From the NCBI GenBank assembly GCA_026400325.1, contig JAPLPF010000137.1, positions 1,486 to 42,281 on the forward strand: a DNA stretch of 40,796 nt, written 5' to 3'. Position numbers and translations under genes: made by a program. Source of the DNA: Rhodobacterales bacterium. Lineage in GTDB: Bacteria; Pseudomonadota; Alphaproteobacteria; Rhodobacterales; Rhodobacteraceae. This document shows positions 1-11,524 of the stretch, one piece after another (position 1 is the stretch's first letter; each line of letters begins with the position of its first letter). The notes beneath the pieces are model-generated. The model had not been told where the DNA came from. It ran no database searches and saw only the letters and a program-made list of their open reading frames with translations.

Positions 1-302
1 CGCTTGAGGCGTAAAAGCAGCGCGGCGTGACCAAGCGTTTTGCCACCCTGGTGATCGAGGCTGCCGAGCATGACCCCCCCTATATGGCGACGATCTGGCA
101 CGGCGGTCAGGTCGTTGGAGAGTTGACCAGCGGTTACTGGGGGCACCGGGTCGGCGCCTGCATCGGCCTTGGCATGCTTCAGGCTGCGGTCAACCAACCG
201 GGTCAGGCGGTCGAGGTCGAGATCTTCGGCCGACGCTACCCGGCCACCGTCAAGGCAGACGAGCCGCTATGGGACCCCAGGAACGAACGCATCCGCGCAT
301 GA
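1..302 (+). pseudogene. C-terminal remnant of a dimethylglycine dehydrogenase/GcvT-type protein, cut by the window edge and an in-frame stop
   Basis: The 91-residue ORF from GTG 27 matches only the last beta-barrel part of the GcvT/aminomethyltransferase C-terminal domain found at the end of dimethylglycine and sarcosine dehydrogenases: motifs DPPYMATIWHGG, SGYWGHRVG and a terminal LWDPRNERIRA. The paralogue at 1336-3774 ends the same way (DPKSERVRA). Codons upstream of base 27 continue the family-like reading (KQRGVTKRF) but are interrupted by TAA at 12-14, where relatives appear to have a sense codon. So this is either a longer gene broken by a nonsense change, a sequence error, or a stand-alone fragment using GTG 27. 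Its TGA overlaps the next gene's ATG (ATGA, 299-302), so it belongs to the same operon. The family assignment is firm; the broken status is inference because the rest of the gene lies outside the window. Confidence 0.6.
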
Positions 303-1339
303 CCCCTGTGCCTTCCACCATGTCTGGCGTGCAGCTTGTCGGCCATGGCGGACCGGAGATGCTTGTGTGGCGCGATGACATCCCGGTGCCCCGCCCTGGC
401 CCGGGCGAGGTTCTGGTGCGTGTGCTGGCGGCGGGGGTCAACATGACCGATCTGAACACCCGGGTCGGCTGGTATGGCCAGGGCGAGGGGCGCGCGGCGG
501 GCTGGGCCGGTGCCATGGCCTTTCCGCGCATCCAGGGCGGCGATCTTTGCGGCCGGGTGGTGGCGCTGGGCGCAGGCGTGGCCGACGTGGCGATCGGCGC
601 GCGGGTCACCTGCTCGACCTGCCAGCCGGAGCCGACGGCGGAAAACCCCATGGCGATCGCCGTCATCGGGTCGGAATTCGACGGTGCCTTCGCGCAATAT
701 TGCGTGGTGCCGGCGCGGTATCTGTATGACGTCACCGACTCGCCGCTGTCGGATATCGAGATTGGTGCCATGCCATGTGCCTATGGTACGGCCTTCAACC
801 TTGTCTCGCGCTCTGGCGTTGCCGTGGGCGAGCGGGTGCTCGTCACAGGAGCCTCGGGCGGGGTTGGCCTTGCGGCGGTTCAACTCGCGATCCTGCGCGG
901 GGCCGAGGTGACGGGGCAATGCAGTCATGCAAAGTCGCAGGCGGTGCGCGCGGCAGGGGCAACTGTGCTGGACCGCGCCGCAACACCGAAAGCGCGCGGC
1001 TTTGACGTGGTGATCGACATTGTCGGCGGTGAGGGCTTTCAGGGGCGGCTGGAGGCTTTGAAGCCTGGCGGGCGCTACGCCACCAGCGGAGCGGTCGGCG
1101 GCCCATTGGTCAGCGGCGATCTGCGCACGGTCTATCTGAACGACCTGACGCTTTTCGGCTGCACCCTGCAGCCGCGCGAGGTCTTTCAGGGCCTTGTCAC
1201 CATCATCAACACCGCCCGCGTCCGGCCGGTGGTGTCGAAAACCTACCCTCTGCGCGACATCGCAACCGCGCAAGCCGATCTTGCCGCCGGGCGCTATCCC
1301 GGCAAACTCGTCCTCGTCCCACCGGAGCCTGCCCCATGA
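299..1339 (+). CDS. Zinc-independent MDR-family oxidoreductase (quinone oxidoreductase-like)
   Basis: A 346-aa medium-chain dehydrogenase/reductase. The N-terminal GroES-like fold (about residues 5-125) includes the PRPGPGEVLVRV strand and a GGDLCGRVVALG loop. The Rossmann domain carries the NADPH-binding LVTGASGGVGLAAVQLA typical of quinone oxidoreductases and crotonyl-CoA reductase-like members, and the C-terminus is the usual YPGKLVLVP. The Cys/His ligands of zinc alcohol dehydrogenases are not in their usual positions, so it is probably zinc-free. I chose ATG 299 because it overlaps the upstream stop as ATGA; the ORF-track start at 269 runs into the upstream gene, and ATG 320 is a second option. 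Its stop overlaps the FAD enzyme's ATG (1336-1339), so translation is probably coupled. The substrate is unknown; reduction or oxidation of an intermediate of the methylated-amine route is inference. Confidence 0.85.
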   Translation: MTPVPSTMSGVQLVGHGGPEMLVWRDDIPVPRPGPGEVLVRVLAAGVNMTDLNTRVGWYGQGEGRAAGWAGAMAFPRIQGGDLCGRVVALGAGVADVAIGARVTCSTCQPEPTAENPMAIAVIGSEFDGAFAQYCVVPARYLYDVTDSPLSDIEIGAMPCAYGTAFNLVSRSGVAVGERVLVTGASGGVGLAAVQLAILRGAEVTGQCSHAKSQAVRAAGATVLDRAATPKARGFDVVIDIVGGEGFQGRLEALKPGGRYATSGAVGGPLVSGDLRTVYLNDLTLFGCTLQPREVFQGLVTIINTARVRPVVSKTYPLRDIATAQADLAAGRYPGKLVLVPPEPAP

Positions 1340-3774
1340 CGATCCCTCAAAAAGCCCGTGCCGTTGTCATCGGCGGCGGCATATCGGGCTGCTCTGTCGC
1401 CTATCACCTCGCCAAGGCCGGTTGGACCGATGTGGTGTTGCTGGAGCGGCGCAAGCTGACCTCGGGCACCACCTGGCATGCGGCGGGGCTGATCGGCCAG
1501 CTGCGCGGGTCGGCCAACATGACCCGGCTGGCAAAGTATTCGGCGGACCTCTACCGGGGGCTGGAGGCGGAAACCGGCGTTGCGACGGGAATGAAGCAGG
1601 TCGGCTCGATCTCGGTCGCGTTGACCCGCGAACGGCATGAGGAATTGCTTCGCCAGGCCACCGTCGCGCGCATCTTCGATGTCGAAGTGCACGAGATTTC
1701 GCCAGGTGAGGCGAAGGCCAAGTATCCCCACCTAAACATCGACGGGGTGGTCGGTGCCGTCGCCTTGCCGCTGGACGGCCAGTGCGACCCTGCGAACATC
1801 GCTATGGCGCTGGCCAAGGGCGCGCGGATGAAGGGCGCGAAGATCTTTGAAGGTGTGACCGTGACGAAGGTGGTCACAGCGGGCGGGCGGGTGACTGGGG
1901 TCGACTATGAAACCGCCGAAGGCCCCGGCCATATCGACGCCGACGTGATCGTGAACTGCGGCGGGATGTGGGGCCGCGACCTTGCAGCGCAGAACGGGGT
2001 CACGCTCCCGCTCCATGCCTGCGAGCATTTCTATCTGATCACCGAGCCCGTGGCCGGGATCGACCTGAACCTGCCCGTCCTGCGCGTGCCGGACGAATGC
2101 GCATATTACAAGCAGGACGCCGGCAAGATGATGCTGGGCGCGTTCGAGCCGGTCGCAAAACCCTGGGGCATGGGCGGTATCCGCAAGGATTTCGAATTCG
2201 ACACCCTGCCCGAAGATTGGGACCACTTCATGCCCATCCTCGAGATGGCCACCAACCGGATGCCACTGTTCCAGACCGCCGGCATCCACACCTTCTTCAA
2301 CGGTCCGGAAAGCTTTACCCCCGACGACCGCTACTACCTTGGCGAAGCGCCCGAGGTGAAAGGCTACTGGATCGCCGCCGGCTACAACTCCATTGGCATC
2401 GTGTCGTCGGGCGGCGCTGGGCAGGCCCTTGCCCACTGGATCACCGAAGGCGAACCGCCGTTCGATCTGTGGGAGGTGGACATCCGCCGCGCGCAGCCCT
2501 TCCAGAAGAACCGCCGCTACCTGAAGGAACGCGTGACCGAGACGCTGGGCCTTCTCTACGCCGACCATTTCCCCTACCGCCAGTTCGCCACAGCGCGTGG
2601 CGTGCGCCGCAGCCCGATCCATGAGCATCTGAAAGCCCGCGGCGCGGTCTTTGGCGAAGCTGCGGGATGGGAACGTGCCAACTGGTTCGCCAAACCGGGG
2701 CAGGAGGCCGAGTATCGCTATTCCTGGAAGCGGCAGAACTGGTTCGACAACCAGCGCGCCGAGCACATGGCGGTGCGGGAAACCGCCGGCCTGTTCGACA
2801 TGACCAGCTTTGGCAAGATCCGGGTCGAGGGTCGTGACGCCTGCGCTTTCCTCAACCGCATTTCCTCGGCCCAGATGGACGTGGCTGCGGGTCGGATCGT
2901 CTACACCATGTTCCTGAATGAAAATGGTGGGATCGAGGCCGACCTTACGGTGACACGCCTCAGCGAGACCGCCTATCTGGCGGTTGTCCCCGGTGCCACG
3001 CTGCAACGCAATCTCGCCTGGATGCGGGCGCAGGTCGGCGACGATTTCGCTGTCATCACCGATGTGACGGCGGCCGAGTCGGTCCTGTGCGTGATGGGTC
3101 CGCAGGCCCGCGACGTGCTTGCAAAAGTCTCGCCCAACGACTTTAGCAACGCAGCCCATCCCTTTGGTACCATGCGGGAAATCGAGATTGGCCTTGGCCT
3201 CGCCCGCGCCCACCGCGTCACATATGTCGGCGAACTGGGGTGGGAGCTTTACGTCAGCGCCGACCAGACCGCCCATGTCTTCGAGGCATTGATGGAAACC
3301 TCGCCCGACCTTCAGCTGTGCGGCCTGCATACGCTGGACAGCTGCCGGATCGAGAAAGCCTATCGCCATTGGGGCCATGACATCACGGATGAAGATCATG
3401 TGCTGGAAGCGGGCCTTGGCTTTACCGTCAGTCGCAAGAAGCCCGCCTTCATCGGGCGCGATGCGGTCCTGCGGACGGAAGAAGCAGGCCCCGCGCGCAA
3501 GATGCTCCAGTTCCGCCTGACCGATCCCGAACCGCTGCTTTTTCACAACGAGGCGATCGTGCGCGACGGCAAGATCATAGGCCCGGTCACCAGCGGCAAC
3601 TACGGCCATTTCCTTGGCGGCGCGATAGGGCTTGGCTATGTTCCGGCGCAGGGCCAGACAGACGATGATATCCTCGGCTCGACCTACGAGATCGAGGTGG
3701 CAGGCAAACGTCATGCCGCGGTGGCCGCTTTGGCCCCGATGCATGACCCCAAATCAGAACGGGTGCGGGCATGA
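1336..3774 (+). CDS. FAD-dependent dimethylglycine/sarcosine dehydrogenase-family protein with GcvT domain
   Basis: An 812-aa two-domain enzyme of normal family length. Residues about 8-370 form a DAO-type FAD domain beginning AVVIGGGISGCSVAYHL. SGTTWHAAGL places His48 where mitochondrial dimethylglycine and sarcosine dehydrogenases bind FAD covalently. A linker (FAO_M type, about 370-430) leads into a GcvT-like tetrahydrofolate-binding domain (about 440-812) with YVGELGWELYV and a terminal DPKSERVRA. In this family the FAD site oxidises an N-methyl group and the GcvT domain passes the formaldehyde-level carbon to tetrahydrofolate. Start and stop overlap neighbours by ATGA on both sides, so it is the core of the operon. 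The adjoining MttB-family gene suggests a methylated amine or betaine substrate, but dimethylglycine itself is not proven. The family is near certain, the substrate not. Confidence 0.9.
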   Translation: MTIPQKARAVVIGGGISGCSVAYHLAKAGWTDVVLLERRKLTSGTTWHAAGLIGQLRGSANMTRLAKYSADLYRGLEAETGVATGMKQVGSISVALTRERHEELLRQATVARIFDVEVHEISPGEAKAKYPHLNIDGVVGAVALPLDGQCDPANIAMALAKGARMKGAKIFEGVTVTKVVTAGGRVTGVDYETAEGPGHIDADVIVNCGGMWGRDLAAQNGVTLPLHACEHFYLITEPVAGIDLNLPVLRVPDECAYYKQDAGKMMLGAFEPVAKPWGMGGIRKDFEFDTLPEDWDHFMPILEMATNRMPLFQTAGIHTFFNGPESFTPDDRYYLGEAPEVKGYWIAAGYNSIGIVSSGGAGQALAHWITEGEPPFDLWEVDIRRAQPFQKNRRYLKERVTETLGLLYADHFPYRQFATARGVRRSPIHEHLKARGAVFGEAAGWERANWFAKPGQEAEYRYSWKRQNWFDNQRAEHMAVRETAGLFDMTSFGKIRVEGRDACAFLNRISSAQMDVAAGRIVYTMFLNENGGIEADLTVTRLSETAYLAVVPGATLQRNLAWMRAQVGDDFAVITDVTAAESVLCVMGPQARDVLAKVSPNDFSNAAHPFGTMREIEIGLGLARAHRVTYVGELGWELYVSADQTAHVFEALMETSPDLQLCGLHTLDSCRIEKAYRHWGHDITDEDHVLEAGLGFTVSRKKPAFIGRDAVLRTEEAGPARKMLQFRLTDPEPLLFHNEAIVRDGKIIGPVTSGNYGHFLGGAIGLGYVPAQGQTDDDILGSTYEIEVAGKRHAAVAALAPMHDPKSERVRA

Positions 3775-5345
3775 ACGATGATCTGACGGAAATGGACCGC
3801 CTGGGCGAAAGCTGCGAACCCTCGCGGTCACGGCGGTCTGGCGGCAGGCAGGCCCGCGTCGCGATGCGCGCGGCCCCCCTTGCCGATGACGTGAAACCCG
3901 TGCGCGCGGGCATGCCGGGCGGGCAGTACAAACCGCTCAGCGAGGTGGCGGTCCAGCAGATCCACGCCGCTGCACTGGACGCGCTGGAACAGATTGGCCT
4001 TTCCCAGGCCCCGCCGTCGGGCGTGAAGCTTCTGACCGATGCGGGGGCCATCCAGGGCGATGACGGACGCATCCGCTTTCCCCGGGCGCTGGTCGAGGAC
4101 ATGCTGACCATCGCCGCCCGCAACATCACGCTGCACGCCCGCGACCCGAAACACGACCTGCACCTGACCGGCAGCAATGTGCATTACGGCACGGCAGGGG
4201 CGGCGGTGCATATCGTTGATCCGGTGACGCTCGATTACCGCGAGTCGACCGCGCAGGATCTGTATGACGCCGCGCGTCTGGTGGATAACCTGGACAACAT
4301 CCATTTCTACCAGCGCACCATGGTCTGCCGCGACGTGGTGGACAACAAGGAGATGGACCTCAACACCCTTTACGGCTGTCTTTCTGGCACCACGAAACAC
4401 GTTGGCACCAGCTTTTCCGACCCGTCGCATGTGGCCGATTGCTTCGAGATGCTGCACATGGTCGCCGGGGGCGAGGCGGAATGGCGCGACCGGCCTTTCG
4501 TCAGCAATTCCAACTGCTTCGTCGTCCCGCCGATGAAATTCGCCGAAGAATCCTGCATCACGATGGAAGATTGCATCCGGCGCGGCATGCCGATGCTGCT
4601 GCTTTCCGCCGGGCAGGCCGGGGCCACGGCGCCCGCGCCGATCGCGCTGACCATCGTGCAGGCCGTGGCCGAATGTCTGGCGGGTGTGGTCTATGTCAAC
4701 GCGATCAGGCCCGGCGCCCCGGCGATCTTCGGCACCTGGCCGTTCGTCAGTGACCTGCGGACTGGCGCGATGTCGGGCGGCAGCGCCGAACAGGCCCTGC
4801 TGACCGCTGGTTGCGCCCAGATGCACCGGTTCTATGACCTGCCCGGCGGGGCTGCTTCGGGCATTTCCGACAGCAAGCTGCCCGACATGCAGGCCGGATG
4901 GGAGCAGGGGATCACCAACGCCCTTGCAGGCCTCGCCGGTCTGAACATGTGCTATGAGGCGGTCGGCATGCACGCCAGCCTGCTTGGCTTCTGTCTGGAA
5001 AGCCTTGTTCTGGGTGATGACCTTCTGGGCCAGACCATGCGCCTTGTCCGGGGTATCGACGTGACCCCCGACACCACCAGCCTGGACGCGATGAAAGAGG
5101 TCTGCCTTGGCGGCCCGGGCCATTACCTTGGATCGGACCAGACGCTGAAGCTGATGCAGACCGAATACATCTATCCGAAATCCGCAAACCGCATGTCGCC
5201 AAAGGAATGGAACGAGGCGGGCAAACCGCTGTTGCTTGACACCGCGATTGCCCGCAAGAATGCAATTCTCGCCAAGGCCGGGTGCCGCGTCGATCCCGAG
5301 ATTGACGCCGCCGTCCGCGCCCGCTTCAACATCTACTTCAAGTGA
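3771..5345 (+). CDS. Trimethylamine methyltransferase (MttB)-family protein, non-pyrrolysine type
   Basis: A 524-aa member of the MttB superfamily. Visible family features are the Arg-rich N-terminus, KPLSEVAVQQIHAAALDALE, the phrase HYGTAGAAVHIVDPVT, and the C-terminal YIYPKSANRMSPKEW block. Archaeal MttB has an in-frame UAG read as pyrrolysine; this frame runs unbroken from start to stop, so the protein belongs to the larger non-Pyl group. Characterised members of that group demethylate quaternary amines (MtgB on glycine betaine, MtpB on proline betaine, MtcB on carnitine), passing the methyl group to a corrinoid protein. No corrinoid protein or corrinoid:THF methyltransferase is encoded in the window, so the acceptor must be elsewhere or different. 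ATG 3771 overlaps the dehydrogenase stop (ATGA). Substrate unknown. Confidence 0.88.
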   Translation: MNDDLTEMDRLGESCEPSRSRRSGGRQARVAMRAAPLADDVKPVRAGMPGGQYKPLSEVAVQQIHAAALDALEQIGLSQAPPSGVKLLTDAGAIQGDDGRIRFPRALVEDMLTIAARNITLHARDPKHDLHLTGSNVHYGTAGAAVHIVDPVTLDYRESTAQDLYDAARLVDNLDNIHFYQRTMVCRDVVDNKEMDLNTLYGCLSGTTKHVGTSFSDPSHVADCFEMLHMVAGGEAEWRDRPFVSNSNCFVVPPMKFAEESCITMEDCIRRGMPMLLLSAGQAGATAPAPIALTIVQAVAECLAGVVYVNAIRPGAPAIFGTWPFVSDLRTGAMSGGSAEQALLTAGCAQMHRFYDLPGGAASGISDSKLPDMQAGWEQGITNALAGLAGLNMCYEAVGMHASLLGFCLESLVLGDDLLGQTMRLVRGIDVTPDTTSLDAMKEVCLGGPGHYLGSDQTLKLMQTEYIYPKSANRMSPKEWNEAGKPLLLDTAIARKNAILAKAGCRVDPEIDAAVRARFNIYFK

Positions 5346-5352
5346 GGTCGCC

Positions 5353-6786
5353 ATGATCCCCGCCAACATGCTGAAATTCTACATCAACGGCCAATGGGTC
5401 GATCCGATCTCGAAAAACCGGATGGGCGTTGAAAACCCGGCGACCGAGGAAATCGTCTGCGAAGTCGCCATGGGGAGCGCCGAGGATGCCGACCGGGCGA
5501 TTCTTGCCGCCCGCGCCGCGTTTGAAGGCTGGACCTACCGCCCGGTGGCCGAACGCATTGCCGTGATGAAGCGGGTGCTTGAGGTCTACAACGACCGCTA
5601 TGAGGATTTCGCCCAAGCCATGTCCACCGAGATGGGTGCGCCGATCACCTGGGCGCGCGGTGCGCAGGCCTGGGCCGGTCAGGTCCACATGGAGGCGACG
5701 ATCAAGGCCGCCGAGGAAATGGTCTGGGAATACAACCGCGGCACCACGCGGATCCTTTATGAAGGGATCGGCGTCTGCTCGCTGATCACGCCGTGGAACT
5801 GGCCGATGAACCAGATCGCCTGCAAGGTCGCCCCGGCGCTGGTTGCGGGCTGCACGATGGTGCTGAAACCGTCGGAAATCGCACCCCTGTCGGGCACGCT
5901 TTTCGCCCAGGTCTGCCATGATGCGGGCGTGCCTGCGGGTGTGTTCAACCTTGTCCACGGGGCAGGCCCCGAGGTTGGCGCGCGGATGTCGACCCACCCC
6001 GAAGTGGACATGGTGTCCTTCACCGGATCTACCCGTGCGGGCACCCAGATCGCCGCCGTCGCCGCCGCGACCGCCAAGCGCGTCGCGCAGGAAATGGGCG
6101 GCAAGTCGCCGAACATCATCCTGCCCGGCGCCAACATCGCCGAGGCTGTTGCCGCAGGCGTGACCGCGGTGATGTCGAACACCGGCCAGTCCTGCGATGC
6201 GCCGACCCGGATGCTTGTCCACCGCTCGCAGCAGGCCGAGGCTCTGGCCGTCGCGAAGAAAGCCGCCGAGGCGATCCAGATCGGCGATCCCCGCGATGAG
6301 GCGACGGTCATGGGGCCGCTGATCTCGAAGCTGCAATTCGACAAGGTCCAGCGTCTGATCCAGGCGGGGATCGACGAAGGGGCAACCCTTGTGACGGGCG
6401 GAACCGGGCGTCCCGCAGGCCTGAACCGCGGCTGGTTTACCCGCCCGACGGTCTTTGGCGATGTGGTGAACGCAATGACCATCTCGAAAGAGGAAATCTT
6501 CGGGCCGGTCCTTGCGATCCAGCCCTATGACAGCATCGAGGACGCCATCGCCCAGGCCAATGACACGATCTACGGCCTTGCCGCCTATATCGCCGGTCCG
6601 GTCGAGGATGCGATCCCGGTCGCCCGTCGTTTGCGCGCAGGCACGGTGAACCTCAATTACCCCGACTGGGACACCTCCGCCCCCTTCGGCGGCTACAAGC
6701 AGTCCGGCAACGGCCGCGAATATGCCGACTGGGGCATCCACGACTTCTGCGAGGTCAAGGGCATCGTCGGCTACGGCGAGGCCTGA
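5353..6786 (+). CDS. NAD(P)-dependent aldehyde dehydrogenase
   Basis: A 477-aa ALDH-superfamily enzyme of normal length. The signature parts are present: TPWNWPMNQ with the oxyanion Asn149, FTGSTRAG in the cofactor domain, general base Glu247 in QEMGGKSPN, catalytic Cys281 in NTGQSCDAPTR, and the EEIFGPVLAI and APFGGYKQSGNGRE blocks. I chose ATG 5353, seven bases after the MttB-family stop and behind a GAGG site, because the ORF-track extension to 5236 lies inside the upstream gene and adds non-homologous residues. It probably oxidises an aldehyde released by a preceding step, such as one from the FAD dehydrogenase or the MDR enzyme. The Cys281 context (GQSCDAPTR) differs from the commoner GQxCxxxxR betaine aldehyde form, so I do not call it betB. 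Operon membership is clear; the substrate is inferred only as an aldehyde. Confidence 0.93.
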   Translation: MIPANMLKFYINGQWVDPISKNRMGVENPATEEIVCEVAMGSAEDADRAILAARAAFEGWTYRPVAERIAVMKRVLEVYNDRYEDFAQAMSTEMGAPITWARGAQAWAGQVHMEATIKAAEEMVWEYNRGTTRILYEGIGVCSLITPWNWPMNQIACKVAPALVAGCTMVLKPSEIAPLSGTLFAQVCHDAGVPAGVFNLVHGAGPEVGARMSTHPEVDMVSFTGSTRAGTQIAAVAAATAKRVAQEMGGKSPNIILPGANIAEAVAAGVTAVMSNTGQSCDAPTRMLVHRSQQAEALAVAKKAAEAIQIGDPRDEATVMGPLISKLQFDKVQRLIQAGIDEGATLVTGGTGRPAGLNRGWFTRPTVFGDVVNAMTISKEEIFGPVLAIQPYDSIEDAIAQANDTIYGLAAYIAGPVEDAIPVARRLRAGTVNLNYPDWDTSAPFGGYKQSGNGREYADWGIHDFCEVKGIVGYGEA

Positions 6787-6847
6787 GCCCGCGCCACAAC
6801 CACAGACGGGGCGGGCCGGAACCCGCCCCCATCCGAACGGGGACATC

Positions 6848-7747
6848 ATGCATTACGGATACATCGGCCTTGGCAACCTCGGGGCCGCCTGCGCCGGCTG
6901 TCTGCTGAAGGACGGCTTCAAGGTCACGGTCTACGACCTGAACCCTGCCCTCGCAGCGCCGCTGATTGCCAACGGCGCCGTGCTTGCATCCAGCGCCGAG
7001 GAACTCGCGGCCGGAGTTGACCATGTCATCACCTGCCTGCCGTCGCCTGCGGTATCCGAGCGTGTGCTGCGGAACATCCTGCCCCACATGAAGCCCGGCG
7101 CGTCCTGGGTCGAGATGTCCACCCTTGGCCGCGACGAGGTGCTGAAACTCGCCGCCATTGCGGGCGAGGCGGGCGTGCGGATGATGGAGCTGCCGGTGAC
7201 CGGGGGCGTCCATCTCGCCTATCAGGGCAAGATCACCATGCTGGCGGGCGGGGACAAGGACCTGTTCGATCTGCACCACGGGGCAATGCAGGCCATGGGG
7301 GACAAGATCTTCCACATGGGTCCGCTGGGGTCGTCCTGTATCATCAAGGTCATCACCAACATGCTGGCCTTCATCCACCTCAAAGCCACGTCCGAGGCGC
7401 TGATGCTGGCCAAGCGCGGCGGGTTGGACCTTGCTCAGTCCTGGCATGCGATTGCCGCCTCGTCCGGCAATTCCTTTGTGCATGAGACGGAAGGGGCACT
7501 GATCCTGAATGGCAGCTACGATATCGCCTTCAACGTCGATCTGGCGCTCAAGGATCTGGGTTTTGCATTGGGGTTCGGCAAGGAGTTCGGGGTGCCGCTT
7601 GACCTTGCGTCGATGACGAACCAGACCTACATCGCCGCCAAGGCCGCCTATGGCGGCGAGGCGCAGTCGCCGATGATCGCCAAACTGCTTGAGGATCTGT
7701 TGGGCACCGACCTTCGCGCCCCGGGCTTTCCGGCCCGGCTGGAGTGA
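6848..7747 (+). CDS. NAD(P)-dependent beta-hydroxyacid dehydrogenase (3-hydroxyisobutyrate/6PGDH family)
   Basis: A 299-aa protein starting at ATG 6848, where the Rossmann motif YIGLGNLGAACAG begins almost at once. The ORF-track extension to 6722 overlaps the aldehyde dehydrogenase and is rejected. Family features are the dinucleotide fold, the substrate loop MELPVTGGVHLAYQGKITML (relatives have DAPVSGG in this place) and Lys167 in GSSCIIKVITN, the conserved catalytic lysine of the beta-hydroxyacid dehydrogenase family. The helical C-terminal half mediates dimerisation in known members. It follows the aldehyde dehydrogenase after 61 bases in the same direction, so it very likely shares its transcript. 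It would interconvert a beta-hydroxyacid and a semialdehyde or keto acid; which one cannot be read from sequence. Confidence 0.88.
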   Translation: MHYGYIGLGNLGAACAGCLLKDGFKVTVYDLNPALAAPLIANGAVLASSAEELAAGVDHVITCLPSPAVSERVLRNILPHMKPGASWVEMSTLGRDEVLKLAAIAGEAGVRMMELPVTGGVHLAYQGKITMLAGGDKDLFDLHHGAMQAMGDKIFHMGPLGSSCIIKVITNMLAFIHLKATSEALMLAKRGGLDLAQSWHAIAASSGNSFVHETEGALILNGSYDIAFNVDLALKDLGFALGFGKEFGVPLDLASMTNQTYIAAKAAYGGEAQSPMIAKLLEDLLGTDLRAPGFPARLE

Positions 7748-7791
7748 CGGTTGCCAAGTGCCAAAGGCCCTGATCGGCCGGAAAGGAGCTG

Positions 7792-8907
7792 ATGGTGGGG
7801 CAGAACGACGACAACGCCATCCGCGCCGCGCGGCTTTTGCATCATCGCAAGGCCGGGCTTGCCCCCGGCGATCCGGTCGCGCCGCCGATCATTCCAGCCA
7901 CCAGCTTTCATCTGCCCTCGAATGGCACCGGCGCCTTCAGCTATGCCCGCGCCGGGAACCCGACCTGGACGGAACTTGAGGCCCAGCTTTCGCTGCTGGA
8001 GGACGCCGAAACGGTTGCCTTCCCATCGGGGATGGCAGCGATTTCGGCGGCGCTTTTCGCCTGCCTGAAGGCGGGTGATCGGGTGATCCTTCCAGCCGAC
8101 GGGTATTATGTGACCCGGGCGCTGGCAGAAAGCTTTCTCCAGCCTCTTGGGGTAAAGGTTGAAACCCTCTCAACCGCAGCCTTTGACACGGCCGATCTGT
8201 CCGGGGCGGCCCTCGTCTACATCGAAACGCCGTCCAACCCGGGTCTTGATGTCTGCGACATCCGCAGCGTCGCCGCCCGGGCCAAGGCGGCGGGGGCGCG
8301 GGTGGTTGTCGACAATACCACGATGACGCCCTTCCTGCAGCGCCCACTGGACCTTGGGGCCGATCTGGTGGTGGCCGCCGACACCAAGGCGCCGGGGGGG
8401 CATTCCGACCTGTTGGCAGGACACGTGGCAGGCCGCGATGCCGATCTTGTGGCCCGGGTGCGCGATTGGCGGCGGCTGTCCGGCGCGGTGCTGGGCCCGT
8501 TCGAGGCCTGGCTTTTGCACCGGGGGCTGGAAACGCTGGAGCTGCGTTTGTCCCGGATGTGTGACAGCGCCCAACGGATTGCCGAACGGCTGCAGGCCCA
8601 TCCCCGGGTGCAGAAGGTGCGCTATCCGGGCCTGGCCGGTGATCCCTCGCATCGGGCCCTTGGCGGGCAGATGGCGAATGGCGGTTTTCTGATCGGCCTC
8701 ACGCTCGCCGACGCTGGCGTGGCCGAGAGGTTCCTGTCAGCCTGTCCCTACCTTGCGCAGTCGACAAGCTTTGGCGCCACCCACTCCTCGGCCGAGCGTC
8801 GCGCCCGCTGGGGCGATGCGGTGCCGGAAGGGTTCATCCGACTGTCGGTCGGGATCGAGCCTGTCGAGGTGTTGTGGACAGCGATTGACGCCGCTCTGGC
8901 AGGATAG
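7792..8907 (+). CDS. PLP-dependent Cys/Met-metabolism enzyme (cystathionine gamma-lyase/methionine gamma-lyase family)
   Basis: A 371-aa fold-type I enzyme. Evidence includes the phosphate/active-site segment YARAGNPTWTELE, the glycine-rich FPSGMAAISAAL, the cofactor-ring Asp in VVVDNTTMTPFLQ, and Lys199 in ADTKAPGGHSDLLAGHV as the Schiff-base lysine. The usual SxTKYxxGHSD is changed to DTKAPGGHSD here, so it is not a textbook MetB, MetC or MetY. An AGGAG at 7784-7788 lies close to ATG 7792; GTG 7795 in the same frame is also possible. It is the last gene of the plus-strand operon, 44 bases after the beta-hydroxyacid dehydrogenase, and ends before a pair of hairpins. A gamma- or beta-elimination on a sulfur- or N-methylated amino acid is plausible but unproven. 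Confidence 0.85.
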   Translation: MVGQNDDNAIRAARLLHHRKAGLAPGDPVAPPIIPATSFHLPSNGTGAFSYARAGNPTWTELEAQLSLLEDAETVAFPSGMAAISAALFACLKAGDRVILPADGYYVTRALAESFLQPLGVKVETLSTAAFDTADLSGAALVYIETPSNPGLDVCDIRSVAARAKAAGARVVVDNTTMTPFLQRPLDLGADLVVAADTKAPGGHSDLLAGHVAGRDADLVARVRDWRRLSGAVLGPFEAWLLHRGLETLELRLSRMCDSAQRIAERLQAHPRVQKVRYPGLAGDPSHRALGGQMANGGFLIGLTLADAGVAERFLSACPYLAQSTSFGATHSSAERRARWGDAVPEGFIRLSVGIEPVEVLWTAIDAALAG

Positions 8908-8912
8908 GGGGC

Positions 8913-8959
8913 CAATTTTCTCGAGCAGGAAAATTGACGAATTCCTTGCTTAAGGAATT
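8913..8959. terminator. Two adjacent AT-rich hairpins between convergent genes, probable bidirectional terminator
   Basis: Two perfect inverted repeats stand side by side: CAATTTTC/GAAAATTG (8913-8920 and 8929-8936, 8-nt loop) and AATTCCTT/AAGGAATT (8940-8947 and 8952-8959, 4-nt loop). They fill nearly all of the space between the plus-strand PLP enzyme (stop 8907) and the minus-strand SDR (stop 8972), the place for a shared terminator. The AT-rich stems stand out against the GC-rich surroundings. Confidence 0.65.
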
Positions 8960-8971
8960 TGGGTTTCGGCC

Positions 8972-9628
8972 CTACAGGCTGGCAAGAATACGTGCCGCCT
9001 CGTCCTGCAGGTCAGCCAGTCTGGACCGATCCTCGCCCGGAAAGAACCGGGCACGGGTTGCCGTGGGCATTGGCGCAGGGGTGGCAATCAGCACGCGGGG
9101 GCCGTGCTTTGCCGCTTCGACCTGCCAGCTTTGCGCCAGCGCGATCTGCGCGGCCTTGGTCGCGCCATAGGCGCCGAAGAACGGCTGTCCGGCGCGGGGG
9201 TCATCCAGAAACAGCGCGGTGCCACCTTTCGCGCGCAGCAAGGGTTCCACCAGCGGGATCATCAGTCCGGTTGCCCGGGTGTTGGTGGCCAGCGATTTTT
9301 CCCAATCCTTCTGGTCAATGTGACTGGCGGGGGCGAGGGGTGCTGCATGGATTGCAGCATGCACCCAGAGGCCAAGGCCGCCCCAGCGGTCGTGGATGCT
9401 GCGGCACAAATGGCGCATCGCGTCGTCATTGGTCACATCCATCGGCGCCAGCGTCAGGCCACCAGACCCCGGCAGCCCGGCGCGTTTCACCCGATCATCC
9501 AGATCCTCCAGCCCGCCTACGGTGCGGGCGACGGCCACCACATGCCAGCCGCGCAGGGCCAGCTGTTCGGCAAGGGCCGACCCGAGGCCTCGCGAGGCGC
9601 CGGTGACAAGGGCGATCTTCTGGGTCAT
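8972..9628 (-). CDS. SDR-family oxidoreductase lacking the canonical catalytic serine
   Basis: A 218-aa short-chain dehydrogenase/reductase. The cofactor motif IALVTGASRGLG is at the N-terminus and YGATK supplies the catalytic Tyr/Lys. The position that usually reads ISS or LSS, about 13 residues before the Tyr, reads FLDDPRAG, so the catalytic Ser is replaced by Asp and activity is uncertain; from memory this looks like a feature of a rhodobacterial subfamily. ATG 9628 is chosen because the fold starts there; the ORF-track extension to 9961 reads through the DUF1801 gene and an intergenic repeat. It lies downstream of purF-DUF1801 on the same strand, 70 bases after DUF1801, with a dispersed repeat element in the gap. 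Substrate unknown. Confidence 0.85.
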   Translation of the reverse strand: MTQKIALVTGASRGLGSALAEQLALRGWHVVAVARTVGGLEDLDDRVKRAGLPGSGGLTLAPMDVTNDDAMRHLCRSIHDRWGGLGLWVHAAIHAAPLAPASHIDQKDWEKSLATNTRATGLMIPLVEPLLRAKGGTALFLDDPRAGQPFFGAYGATKAAQIALAQSWQVEAAKHGPRVLIATPAPMPTATRARFFPGEDRSRLADLQDEAARILASL

Positions 9629-9655
9629 GCGTCGGTCCTTGCGGAAGTGTTGGAA

Positions 9656-9688
9656 GCCTCCGGCGGGGATATTTGGGCCAGAATGAAA
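9656..9688 (-). repeat. Dispersed intergenic repeat, short form (copy 1)
   Basis: A 33-nt element reading, on the minus strand, TTTCATTCTGGCCCAAATAT then CCCCGCCGGAGGC. It is 32/33 identical to the copy at 19703-19735. It lies 27 bases upstream of an SDR start codon; the second copy also lies upstream of an SDR gene. Related hairpin-bearing members are at 14184, 19748 and 29284. Confidence 0.8.
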
Positions 9689-9698
9689 GGGCAAGGGG

Positions 9699-10064
9699 TC
9701 AGACTTTGCCGTAGCCTGCGGCAAGTTCGGCCTGTCGCGTGCGGATGATCTGTTCGAGAAGGGCGTCGGGGAGGGGGTTGTCGGTCGTGAAGAGGACGCC
9801 GGACTTCGAGGTCTTGAACGGCGCGCAGTCGATCCGGGGAATGACAGTGCCGGAATGGGGGTAGAGGCCGAGGTGGCGGGTGAAGGCCGCGTAGCCCACG
9901 ACCATCCTGCCTTTTGGCCCCGGCTGGCGAAGCCCTGGCATGGCGTAGGACATTGTTTCAAGATGGTCGGGAAGAAGCGTCTTCAGGCGCGCCCGCAGGT
10001 TGGTCAGGGCCTCGCGCTGGTCCTGGGGGAGGGCGGAAAGATAGGTGTCGACGTCGGCGCTCAC
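9699..10064 (-). CDS. DUF1801-domain protein
   Basis: A 121-aa protein of the DUF1801 (YdhG/iron-chaperone-like) fold. Visible features are an N-terminal helical pair (DVDTYLSALPQDQREALTNLR), ETMSYAMPGLR, GRMVVGYAAFTRHLGLYPHSG and the C-terminal IRTRQAEL. The start is GTG 10064, which overlaps the purF stop as GTGA (10061-10064); the ORF-track start at 10145 lies inside purF and adds unrelated residues. The overlap implies translational coupling to purF. Family members are small cytosolic proteins without an agreed biochemical role, so I give no function. Domain assignment is fairly sure. Confidence 0.82.
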   Translation of the reverse strand: MSADVDTYLSALPQDQREALTNLRARLKTLLPDHLETMSYAMPGLRQPGPKGRMVVGYAAFTRHLGLYPHSGTVIPRIDCAPFKTSKSGVLFTTDNPLPDALLEQIIRTRQAELAAGYGKV

Positions 10065-11524
10065 TCGGCCGCCTTCATCTGGAACCCTTCCTCGATCTTG
10101 TCGGACGGGGCTACGGGGTAGTCGCCCGAGAAACAGGCGTCGCAAAAGCGGGGCGCGGCTGCATCGCGGCCAGCGGCTTCGCCCGCGGCGCGATAGAGGC
10201 CGTCGAGGGACACGAATTTCAGACTGTCGACGCCGATCCAGTCACGCATTTCGTCTTCCGACATCGTTGCTGCCAGAAGCTTTGACCGTTCCGGCGTGTC
10301 GACACCGTAAAAGCACGGCCATGCGGTCGGGGGTGAGGCGATGCGGAAGTGGACCTCGGCAGCCCCCGCCTCAAGGATCATGTCCTTGATCTTGCGGCTG
10401 GTGGTGCCGCGCACGACGCTGTCGTCCACAAGGATCACCCGCTTGCCCTTGATGAGGGCGCGGTTGACGTTCAGCTTGAGCCGCACACCCATGTTGCGGA
10501 TGCTGTCGGTGGGCTCGATGAAGGTCCTGCCCATGTACTGGTTGCGGATGATCCCCATCCCGAAGGGGATGCCGCTTTCATGTGCATAGCCGATGGCCGC
10601 GGGGGTGCCGCTATCGGGCACCGGGCAGACAAGATCGGCATCCACCGGGGCCTCGCGCGCAAGTTCGACGCCGATCTGGCGGCGGGTCTCATAGACCGAG
10701 CGGCCACCTATGATGCTGTCAGGGCGCGAGAAGTAGACGTTTTCGAAGATACAGAACCGGGATTTGGCGGGCTGGAAGGGGCGGGTCGATTCGATCTTGT
10801 TGCCTTCGATCACCACCATCTCGCCGGGTTCGATCTCGCGGATGAACTCGGCCCCGATGATGTCGAGGCCGCAGGTCTCCGACGACAGCGCCCAGCCGTG
10901 ATCGCTGATGCGTCCAAGGACCAGCGGGCGCACGCCAAGGGGGTCACGCACTCCGATCAGCTTGGTGCGGGTCATGGCGACGACGGAAAACGCGCCCTCG
11001 ACCCGGCGCAGCGCGTCCTTGATGCGTTCCGACAGGGTCTTCTGGATCGACCGGGCCATCAGATGAATGATGCATTCGCTGTCCGAGGAGGACTGGAAGA
11101 TCGACCCGCGCTCGATCAGTTCGCGACGCAGCGCGGTGGCATTGGTCAGGTTGCCGTTGTGCGCGATGGCGCAGCCACCCATCGAAAACTCGCCAAAGAA
11201 GGGCTGCACGTCGCGGATCGCGGTGGCGCCTTTCGATCCGGCGGTGGAATAGCGGACATGGCCGATGGACAGGTTTCCCGGCAGGGTGTCCATCACGTCT
11301 GGCTTGGTGAAGTTGTCACGAACATAGCCGAAGCGGCGGGCCGAGTTGAAGCCGTGGTCGGGGTGGTAGCTGACAATGCCGCCGGCTTCTTGCCCGCGAT
11401 GTTGCAGGGCATGCAGACCAAGGGCCACGAAGTTCGACGCATCGGCCACGCCGACGACGCCGAAGATCCCGCACTCCTCCTTCAGCTTGTCGTCATCGAA
11501 GGGGTGCGAGCGGAAGGGGTCCAT
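10061..11524 (-). CDS. purF: Amidophosphoribosyltransferase
   Basis: A 487-aa PurF that makes 5-phosphoribosylamine from PRPP and glutamine, the first committed step of purine synthesis. The Ntn glutaminase nucleophile is Cys18 in EECGIFGVVG, so a 17-residue propeptide would be removed. HALQHRGQEAGGI follows, and the C-terminal phosphoribosyltransferase domain has the PRPP loop VILVDDSVVRGTTS (about residues 360-375). Propeptide-bearing PurF proteins of this type commonly carry an Fe-S cluster (established for B. subtilis); whether this one does is not shown. It follows cvpA on the minus strand, the classic cvpA-purF arrangement, with a strong hairpin between them, and its stop overlaps the DUF1801 start. 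Confidence 0.97.
   Translation of the reverse strand: MDPFRSHPFDDDKLKEECGIFGVVGVADASNFVALGLHALQHRGQEAGGIVSYHPDHGFNSARRFGYVRDNFTKPDVMDTLPGNLSIGHVRYSTAGSKGATAIRDVQPFFGEFSMGGCAIAHNGNLTNATALRRELIERGSIFQSSSDSECIIHLMARSIQKTLSERIKDALRRVEGAFSVVAMTRTKLIGVRDPLGVRPLVLGRISDHGWALSSETCGLDIIGAEFIREIEPGEMVVIEGNKIESTRPFQPAKSRFCIFENVYFSRPDSIIGGRSVYETRRQIGVELAREAPVDADLVCPVPDSGTPAAIGYAHESGIPFGMGIIRNQYMGRTFIEPTDSIRNMGVRLKLNVNRALIKGKRVILVDDSVVRGTTSRKIKDMILEAGAAEVHFRIASPPTAWPCFYGVDTPERSKLLAATMSEDEMRDWIGVDSLKFVSLDGLYRAAGEAAGRDAAAPRFCDACFSGDYPVAPSDKIEEGFQMKAAE

Follow-up and report, generated by a model that had tools for sequence, protein, structure and literature searches.

Organization of the locus

The window, by which we mean the whole stretch of 40,796 nucleotides that was analysed, corresponds to bases 1486-42281 of contig C110 in a 3.56 Mb, 90%-complete Rhodobacteraceae assembly, whose closest named relatives, judged by the MttB protein described below, are Tabrizicola strains and related MAGs (91-94% identity). 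Positions 1-8907 carry seven genes on the forward strand, followed by a convergent neighbour that lies outside the predicted operon:

1..302, + strand: G0, C-terminal end of a DMGDH-type FAD/GcvT N-demethylase truncated at the start of the window (main part in L007 2-1787, which contains an N gap)
299..1339, + strand: MDR, MDR-family (zinc-type) alcohol dehydrogenase/quinone reductase, accessory (PF08240, PF00107)
1336..3774, + strand: FAD1, second FAD/GcvT oxidative N-demethylase with the domains DAO-FAO_M-GCV_T-GCV_T_C (domains; DMGDH and DMGO matches; tree)
3771..5345, + strand: MttB, non-pyrrolysine MttB-superfamily methyltransferase of a divergent clade (PF06253; tree; synteny; fold)
5353..6786, + strand: ALDH, aldehyde dehydrogenase (PF00171)
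6848..7747, + strand: bHADH, beta-hydroxyacid dehydrogenase of the 3-hydroxyisobutyrate/tartronate-semialdehyde-reductase superfamily (PF03446, PF14833)
7792..8907, + strand: CGL, cystathionine gamma-lyase (PRK07582 type), an optional PLP enzyme (NF005758)
8972..9961, - strand: short-chain dehydrogenase (PF00106 at residues 115-306), whose true start probably lies inside this reading frame

The original prediction had described this region as a set of co-directional genes probably made together, and its reading of the layout holds: all the genes that it named are present on the same strand, neighbouring genes overlap by ATGA at the first three junctions (299-302, 1336-1339 and 3771-3774), and the later junctions are gaps of 7 nt before ALDH, 61 nt and 44 nt. 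The best start of MDR is at 299, its ATG overlapping the stop codon of the preceding gene. That gene, which had been left unnamed, is G0, a second FAD/GcvT demethylase with its body upstream on the same contig. Scans for promoters and terminators gave no signal above shuffled sequences.

Conservation of the gene order

To place the operon in context, we sampled 80 named loci with the nearest MttB, 20 roseobacter loci, further Rhodobacteraceae loci and 20 loci from other alphaproteobacterial families; counts for the operon clade use denominators of 72 or 78 and include only loci with enough flank. The conserved core consists of a divergent LysR gene (67/72), G0 and FAD1 co-directional upstream of MttB (68/72 and 66/72, respectively), and bHADH downstream of it (68/78). 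Variable members are ALDH (50/78), CGL (34/78), MDR (19/72) and a homocysteine methyltransferase gene (8/72); a PEP-mutase/ICL-type gene occurs in 11 of the 72 loci. CGL and the homocysteine methyltransferase gene were never found together: 27 of 66 loci carry the former, eight the latter and none both, a tally over related loci to which no formal test was applied. The gene order is thus conserved in Rhodobacterales and beyond, as the original prediction had proposed to check. Its companion suggestion of a linked regulator or transporter was borne out for the regulator, the divergent LysR gene, whereas no transporter is conserved across the loci examined.

The core persists when its surroundings change. 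Of 32 loci without the purF flank that adjoins the operon in the window, 29 retain G0, 29 FAD1 and 30 bHADH. Moreover, a run of FAD/GcvT, FAD/GcvT and MttB genes in one direction recurs in at least seven other alphaproteobacterial families (f34, f65, f79, f96, f109, f148 and f162), in several of which a LysR or XRE-type regulator gene lies nearby. In one locus of another family, L212 (G533:C145:6500-26000), homologues of bHADH and ALDH (42% and 48% identity, respectively) lie upstream of G0-FAD1-MttB on the same strand. We consider the operon, as predicted from gene layout and conservation, to be real and more than a chance arrangement, its genes apparently held together by selection.

Several variants of the neighbourhood were observed. 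L212 is the only locus in which a linked transporter turned up: downstream of G0-FAD1-MttB, it carries on the same strand a peptide-type ABC transporter, then another MttB gene (the second of this locus) and a third gene of the FAD/GcvT type. Loktanella locus L110, together with L112 and L113, retains LysR, MttB and bHADH only. In a Defluviimonas-type subgroup (L083, L090, L095, L096, L114 and L116), bHADH is followed by a GMC gene, choline-dehydrogenase-like but below the betA cut-off, and a HyuA-type hydantoinase/oxoprolinase gene; the GMC gene is present in L115 too. Among the roseobacter loci (L117-L136), a class I aminotransferase gene accompanies MttB in 14 of 20 and a PEP-mutase/ICL-family gene in eight of 20.

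Two FAD/GcvT enzymes and one MttB-family methyltransferase

Since G0 is cut by the window edge, its comparison used a nearly complete orthologue (L037:1-2433, 90% identical), which aligns over its full length with rat and human dimethylglycine dehydrogenase at 551 bits; G0 itself has a PF16350 match at G000:C110:464. FAD1 combines its four domains in one chain and scores 446 bits against dimethylglycine dehydrogenase (DMGDH) and 388 bits against dimethylglycine oxidase (DMGO), so that the best match of both flavoenzymes is dimethylglycine dehydrogenase. When aligned to DMGDH and DMGO, both retain the WHAAG motif (TTWHAAG and STWHAAG) and an acidic residue at the folate site (EADLTV and VTEMSV); we take the motif histidine and this acidic residue to be functional residues of DMGDH/SARDH-type enzymes. 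Like mitochondrial dimethylglycine dehydrogenase and Arthrobacter dimethylglycine oxidase, both consist of a FAD half and a folate-binding GcvT half, at about 28-38% identity to these enzymes. In the tree the two fall into separate deep clades, the half with G0 including dimethylglycine dehydrogenase and the half with FAD1 including an enzyme of the same genome on contig C156, and from these data strict orthology to a characterised enzyme cannot be claimed for either.

The C156 enzyme is one of four more FAD/GcvT enzymes encoded elsewhere in the genome. Its gene (L166, G000:C156, 364-8531), whose frame is interrupted near 921-938 in the assembly, is followed by serine-cycle genes, namely a class V aminotransferase, an HpcH-type lyase and a malate-CoA ligase.

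The methyltransferase scores 367 bits against PF06253 (cut-off 25). It is the divergent type among five or six PF06253 genes or fragments in the genome, the complete others scoring 730-750 bits. Two of the fragments lie at contig ends (L149, G000:C36, 2-4712, and L148, G000:C109), one by genes for an OYE-type flavoprotein, a LysR regulator and a MetF-like protein, the other by peptide-type ABC transporter genes. The reading frame of the window MttB is open, with neither an internal stop nor an in-frame TAG, and the alignments place isoleucine at the pyrrolysine position, where Methanosarcina barkeri MttB has X and Desulfitobacterium hafniense MtgB has leucine. Assignment as the pyrrolysine trimethylamine methyltransferase was rejected, as there is no pyrrolysine codon and the TIGR02369 score is 336 against a cut-off of 525 bits. 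An AlphaFold model of moderate quality (pLDDT 69) confirmed the fold only, which matches that of MtgB (2qne, 9yce).

In the MttB tree, the operon clade and the roseobacter proteins form one group with 100/100 support. With 60% identity as the threshold, around 140 of 249 Rhodobacteraceae genomes contain members of this group, about one each, and only one of the 249 carries two. The roseobacter gene often adjoins one for a small outer-membrane beta-barrel protein. In Ruegeria pomeroyi, SPO2133 encodes a 178-aa outer-membrane protein (PMC9938194), and by synteny its neighbour SPO2134 is probably the R. pomeroyi member of the group; the clade tree, together with the SPO2133-like neighbour, likewise indicates that the window MttB is probably orthologous to SPO2134/MtgB2.

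Putative methyl relay genes elsewhere in the genome

No corrinoid protein gene lies inside the operon. On contig C45, genes for an MtgC-type B12-binding protein, an MtgE-like homocysteine methyltransferase and a DUF1638 protein sit together, and contig C126 encodes an MtgD-like pterin-binding protein, recognised solely by being a second PF00809 protein (87 bits) in addition to FolP. MetH was not detected in this 90%-complete genome, in which there are only two B12-binding_2 matches, neither in a MetH-sized frame. In R. pomeroyi, MtgC and MtgD are essential for growth on glycine betaine and for methionine synthesis; mtgC and mtgD mutants do not grow on glycine betaine, SPO2134 (MtgB2) increases on glycine betaine, choline and carnitine, and other substrates were proposed for the extra PF06253 genes (Mausz and co-workers, PMC12478193).

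Given these genes elsewhere in the genome, together with the persistence of the core across changing flanks and in seven other families, it is highly improbable that MttB is not corrinoid-linked and that the cluster, lacking a corrinoid protein gene of its own, is a loose set of broad-specificity dehydrogenases joined by shared ancestry only.

Downstream and accessory enzymes

Close copies of bHADH occur in 34 of 249 genomes of the family, most of them beside an operon-clade MttB, which makes the enzyme nearly clade-specific. It conserves the catalytic K and N of its superfamily. Assignment as an ordinary tartronate semialdehyde reductase was rejected: the cut-offs of both models are missed (TIGR01505, 146 against 341 bits; NF008592, 158 against 397 bits), and no glyoxylate carboligase was found over cut-off in the 90%-complete genome, so that a tartronate-semialdehyde role would lack its usual partner.

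Two observations from other genomes concern the metabolic surroundings. In L179 (G130:C1:3000-21000, at 8603-10799), a bHADH homologue 85% identical to the one in the window stands in tandem with a MOFRL glycerate 2-kinase gene, the pair adjoining glpD and a GlpR-like gene. In L117 (G094:C1:2348500-2367500) and L122 (G055:C1:2589500-2608500), an MttB gene of the same clade adjoins bhcR and bhcABCD. The latter two loci suggest that betaine demethylation is genomically coupled to glyoxylate/glycine assimilation by the beta-hydroxyaspartate cycle, and the glycerate 2-kinase and bhcRABCD neighbours together speak for C2/C3 acid metabolism downstream of demethylation, and hence for glycine.

ALDH was considered as a betaine aldehyde dehydrogenase and rejected, as it scores 399 against 668.6 bits for TIGR01804 and does not conserve the aromatic box. 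At the four positions that we take to form this box in the spinach enzyme, only the first keeps Tyr/Trp, the others being C, S and F.

CGL appears to be an ordinary member of the cystathionine gamma-lyase family (NF005758, 520 bits against a cut-off of 440). The original prediction had counted this PLP enzyme as a C-S lyase-type member of the operon and as a hint that the substrate carries sulfur or a good leaving group; neither a place in the core nor a sulfur substrate is supported, since the gene is optional as well as ordinary. A sulfur-containing or sulfonium substrate whose degradation ends in PLP-dependent C-S elimination is accordingly a most unlikely reading: the gene for the Cys/Met-metabolism PLP enzyme does start 44 nt after bHADH, but 44 of 78 loci lack it and still keep the other operon genes, and no sulfur-specific gene is conserved.

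Proposed pathway and substrate

Together, G0, FAD1 and the single MttB amount to three demethylases, matching the three methyl groups of a trimethylammonium compound. The idea of stepwise N-demethylation in the original prediction is upheld to the extent that corrinoid-type and folate-type N-demethylases are encoded together. Our favoured reading, to which we assign a probability of about 0.5, is that this LysR-linked operon of an aerobic bacterium removes all three methyl groups from such a compound, most likely glycine betaine.

From the gene content, its conservation, the family assignments and the MtgC-, MtgD-, MtgE- and DUF1638-type genes in the genome, we infer four steps, their substrate and the roles of bHADH, ALDH, MDR and CGL. 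In step 1, MttB would transfer one methyl group to the Co(I) corrinoid protein MtgC, from which MtgD would pass it to tetrahydrofolate, both partners being encoded outside the operon in the same genome. In steps 2 and 3, G0 and FAD1 would oxidise the two remaining N-methyl groups, loading each one-carbon unit onto tetrahydrofolate as 5,10-methylene-THF. Step 4 would take the resulting primary amine, which for glycine betaine is glycine, into glycine/glyoxylate metabolism. bHADH and ALDH would probably handle C2/C3 aldehydes or hydroxyacids, and CGL or the homocysteine methyltransferase may be alternative accessories on the methyl/homocysteine side.

Some features count against glycine betaine itself. 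Identity between the window MttB and the glycine betaine enzyme of solved structure is only 28%, the four to five other MttB genes in the genome are nearer the Pfam model, and the four other FAD/GcvT enzymes could be alternative glycine-betaine enzymes. ALDH is without the betaine-aldehyde aromatic box, for this substrate ALDH, MDR and CGL are not obviously needed, and the missing glyoxylate carboligase leaves bHADH without the usual partner of a tartronate-semialdehyde role. As a less probable alternative, the same three-step module may act on another trimethylated substrate, for example a hydroxylated or alpha-amino-acid betaine, with bHADH, ALDH, CGL or an aminotransferase processing the demethylated product. 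Both bHADH and ALDH are found with the operon, and homologues of the two reappear beside it in L212, the class I aminotransferase gene is frequent beside roseobacter MttB, the FAD/GcvT and MttB paralogues elsewhere in the genome could serve glycine betaine, and the proposal of other substrates for the extra PF06253 genes in R. pomeroyi would fit as well. Against this alternative, SPO2134 is reported to be up on glycine betaine, choline and carnitine, the widespread, single-copy occurrence of this MttB across Rhodobacteraceae suits a ubiquitous substrate, and the neighbouring bhc and glycerate-kinase genes favour glycine/glyoxylate.

It is rather improbable, in our view, that the operon is devoted to the aerobic breakdown of a different trimethylated amino acid, such as a hydroxylated betaine or trimethylhomoserine, the betaine-lipid head group. 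In this reading one corrinoid and two folate enzymes would fully demethylate the substrate and bHADH, ALDH, an aminotransferase or a gamma-lyase would degrade the rest. Literature searches returned no match for a pathway of this kind, including betaine-lipid head-group catabolism.

Relation to known systems

The original prediction knew of no described pathway with this set of enzymes. For the exact gene set this stands within the literature searched, but an aerobic MttB route to glycine betaine demethylation, the MtgBCD system of R. pomeroyi, was published in 2025 (PMC12478193). The two resemble each other in using a non-pyrrolysine PF06253 enzyme, in encoding MtgC-, MtgD-, MtgE- and DUF1638-type genes separately from it, and in that no MetH was found. 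Whereas the parts are scattered in R. pomeroyi, the MttB gene of the window shares one cluster with two FAD/GcvT demethylase genes, bHADH and accessory genes, all behind a LysR gene. Later demethylation genes have been noted near mtgBCD in other bacteria, and co-location as such is thus already known (PMC12478193). Judged by its genes, the chemistry of the operon is a putative variant of the MtgBCD route, and the operon arranges the known aerobic corrinoid route for betaines in a new way. For the full packaging of one B12-route demethylase with two folate-linked oxidative demethylases, no match was found in the literature searched, each enzyme type being known.

D. hafniense MtgB (2qne, 9yce) shares the fold and the non-pyrrolysine MttB superfamily with the window enzyme, but it comes from an anaerobe and works with a different corrinoid protein. 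MtcB, MtyB, MtpB and MthB of Eubacterium limosum show how MttB paralogues can specialise on distinct quaternary amines (PMC8604678, PMC12155760; see also the discussion in PMC12478193); their host is an anaerobic acetogen, unlike the host of the aerobic route considered here, and in the literature examined no association of these paralogues with FAD/GcvT demethylases is reported.

The 2025 work on R. pomeroyi settled the roles of MtgC and MtgD, but not which of several MttB genes takes which methylated compound (PMC12478193). In the present data one MttB clade, which occurs in over half of the Rhodobacteraceae genera sampled, is physically linked with exactly two more N-demethylase genes, and this linkage extends over many Rhodobacterales genera and seven other families. 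The substrate assignment can be tested directly in culturable strains of Tabrizicola, Gemmobacter and Cypionkella. The operon supplies marker genes for complete betaine demethylation, as well as a lead on the role of the bHADH family.
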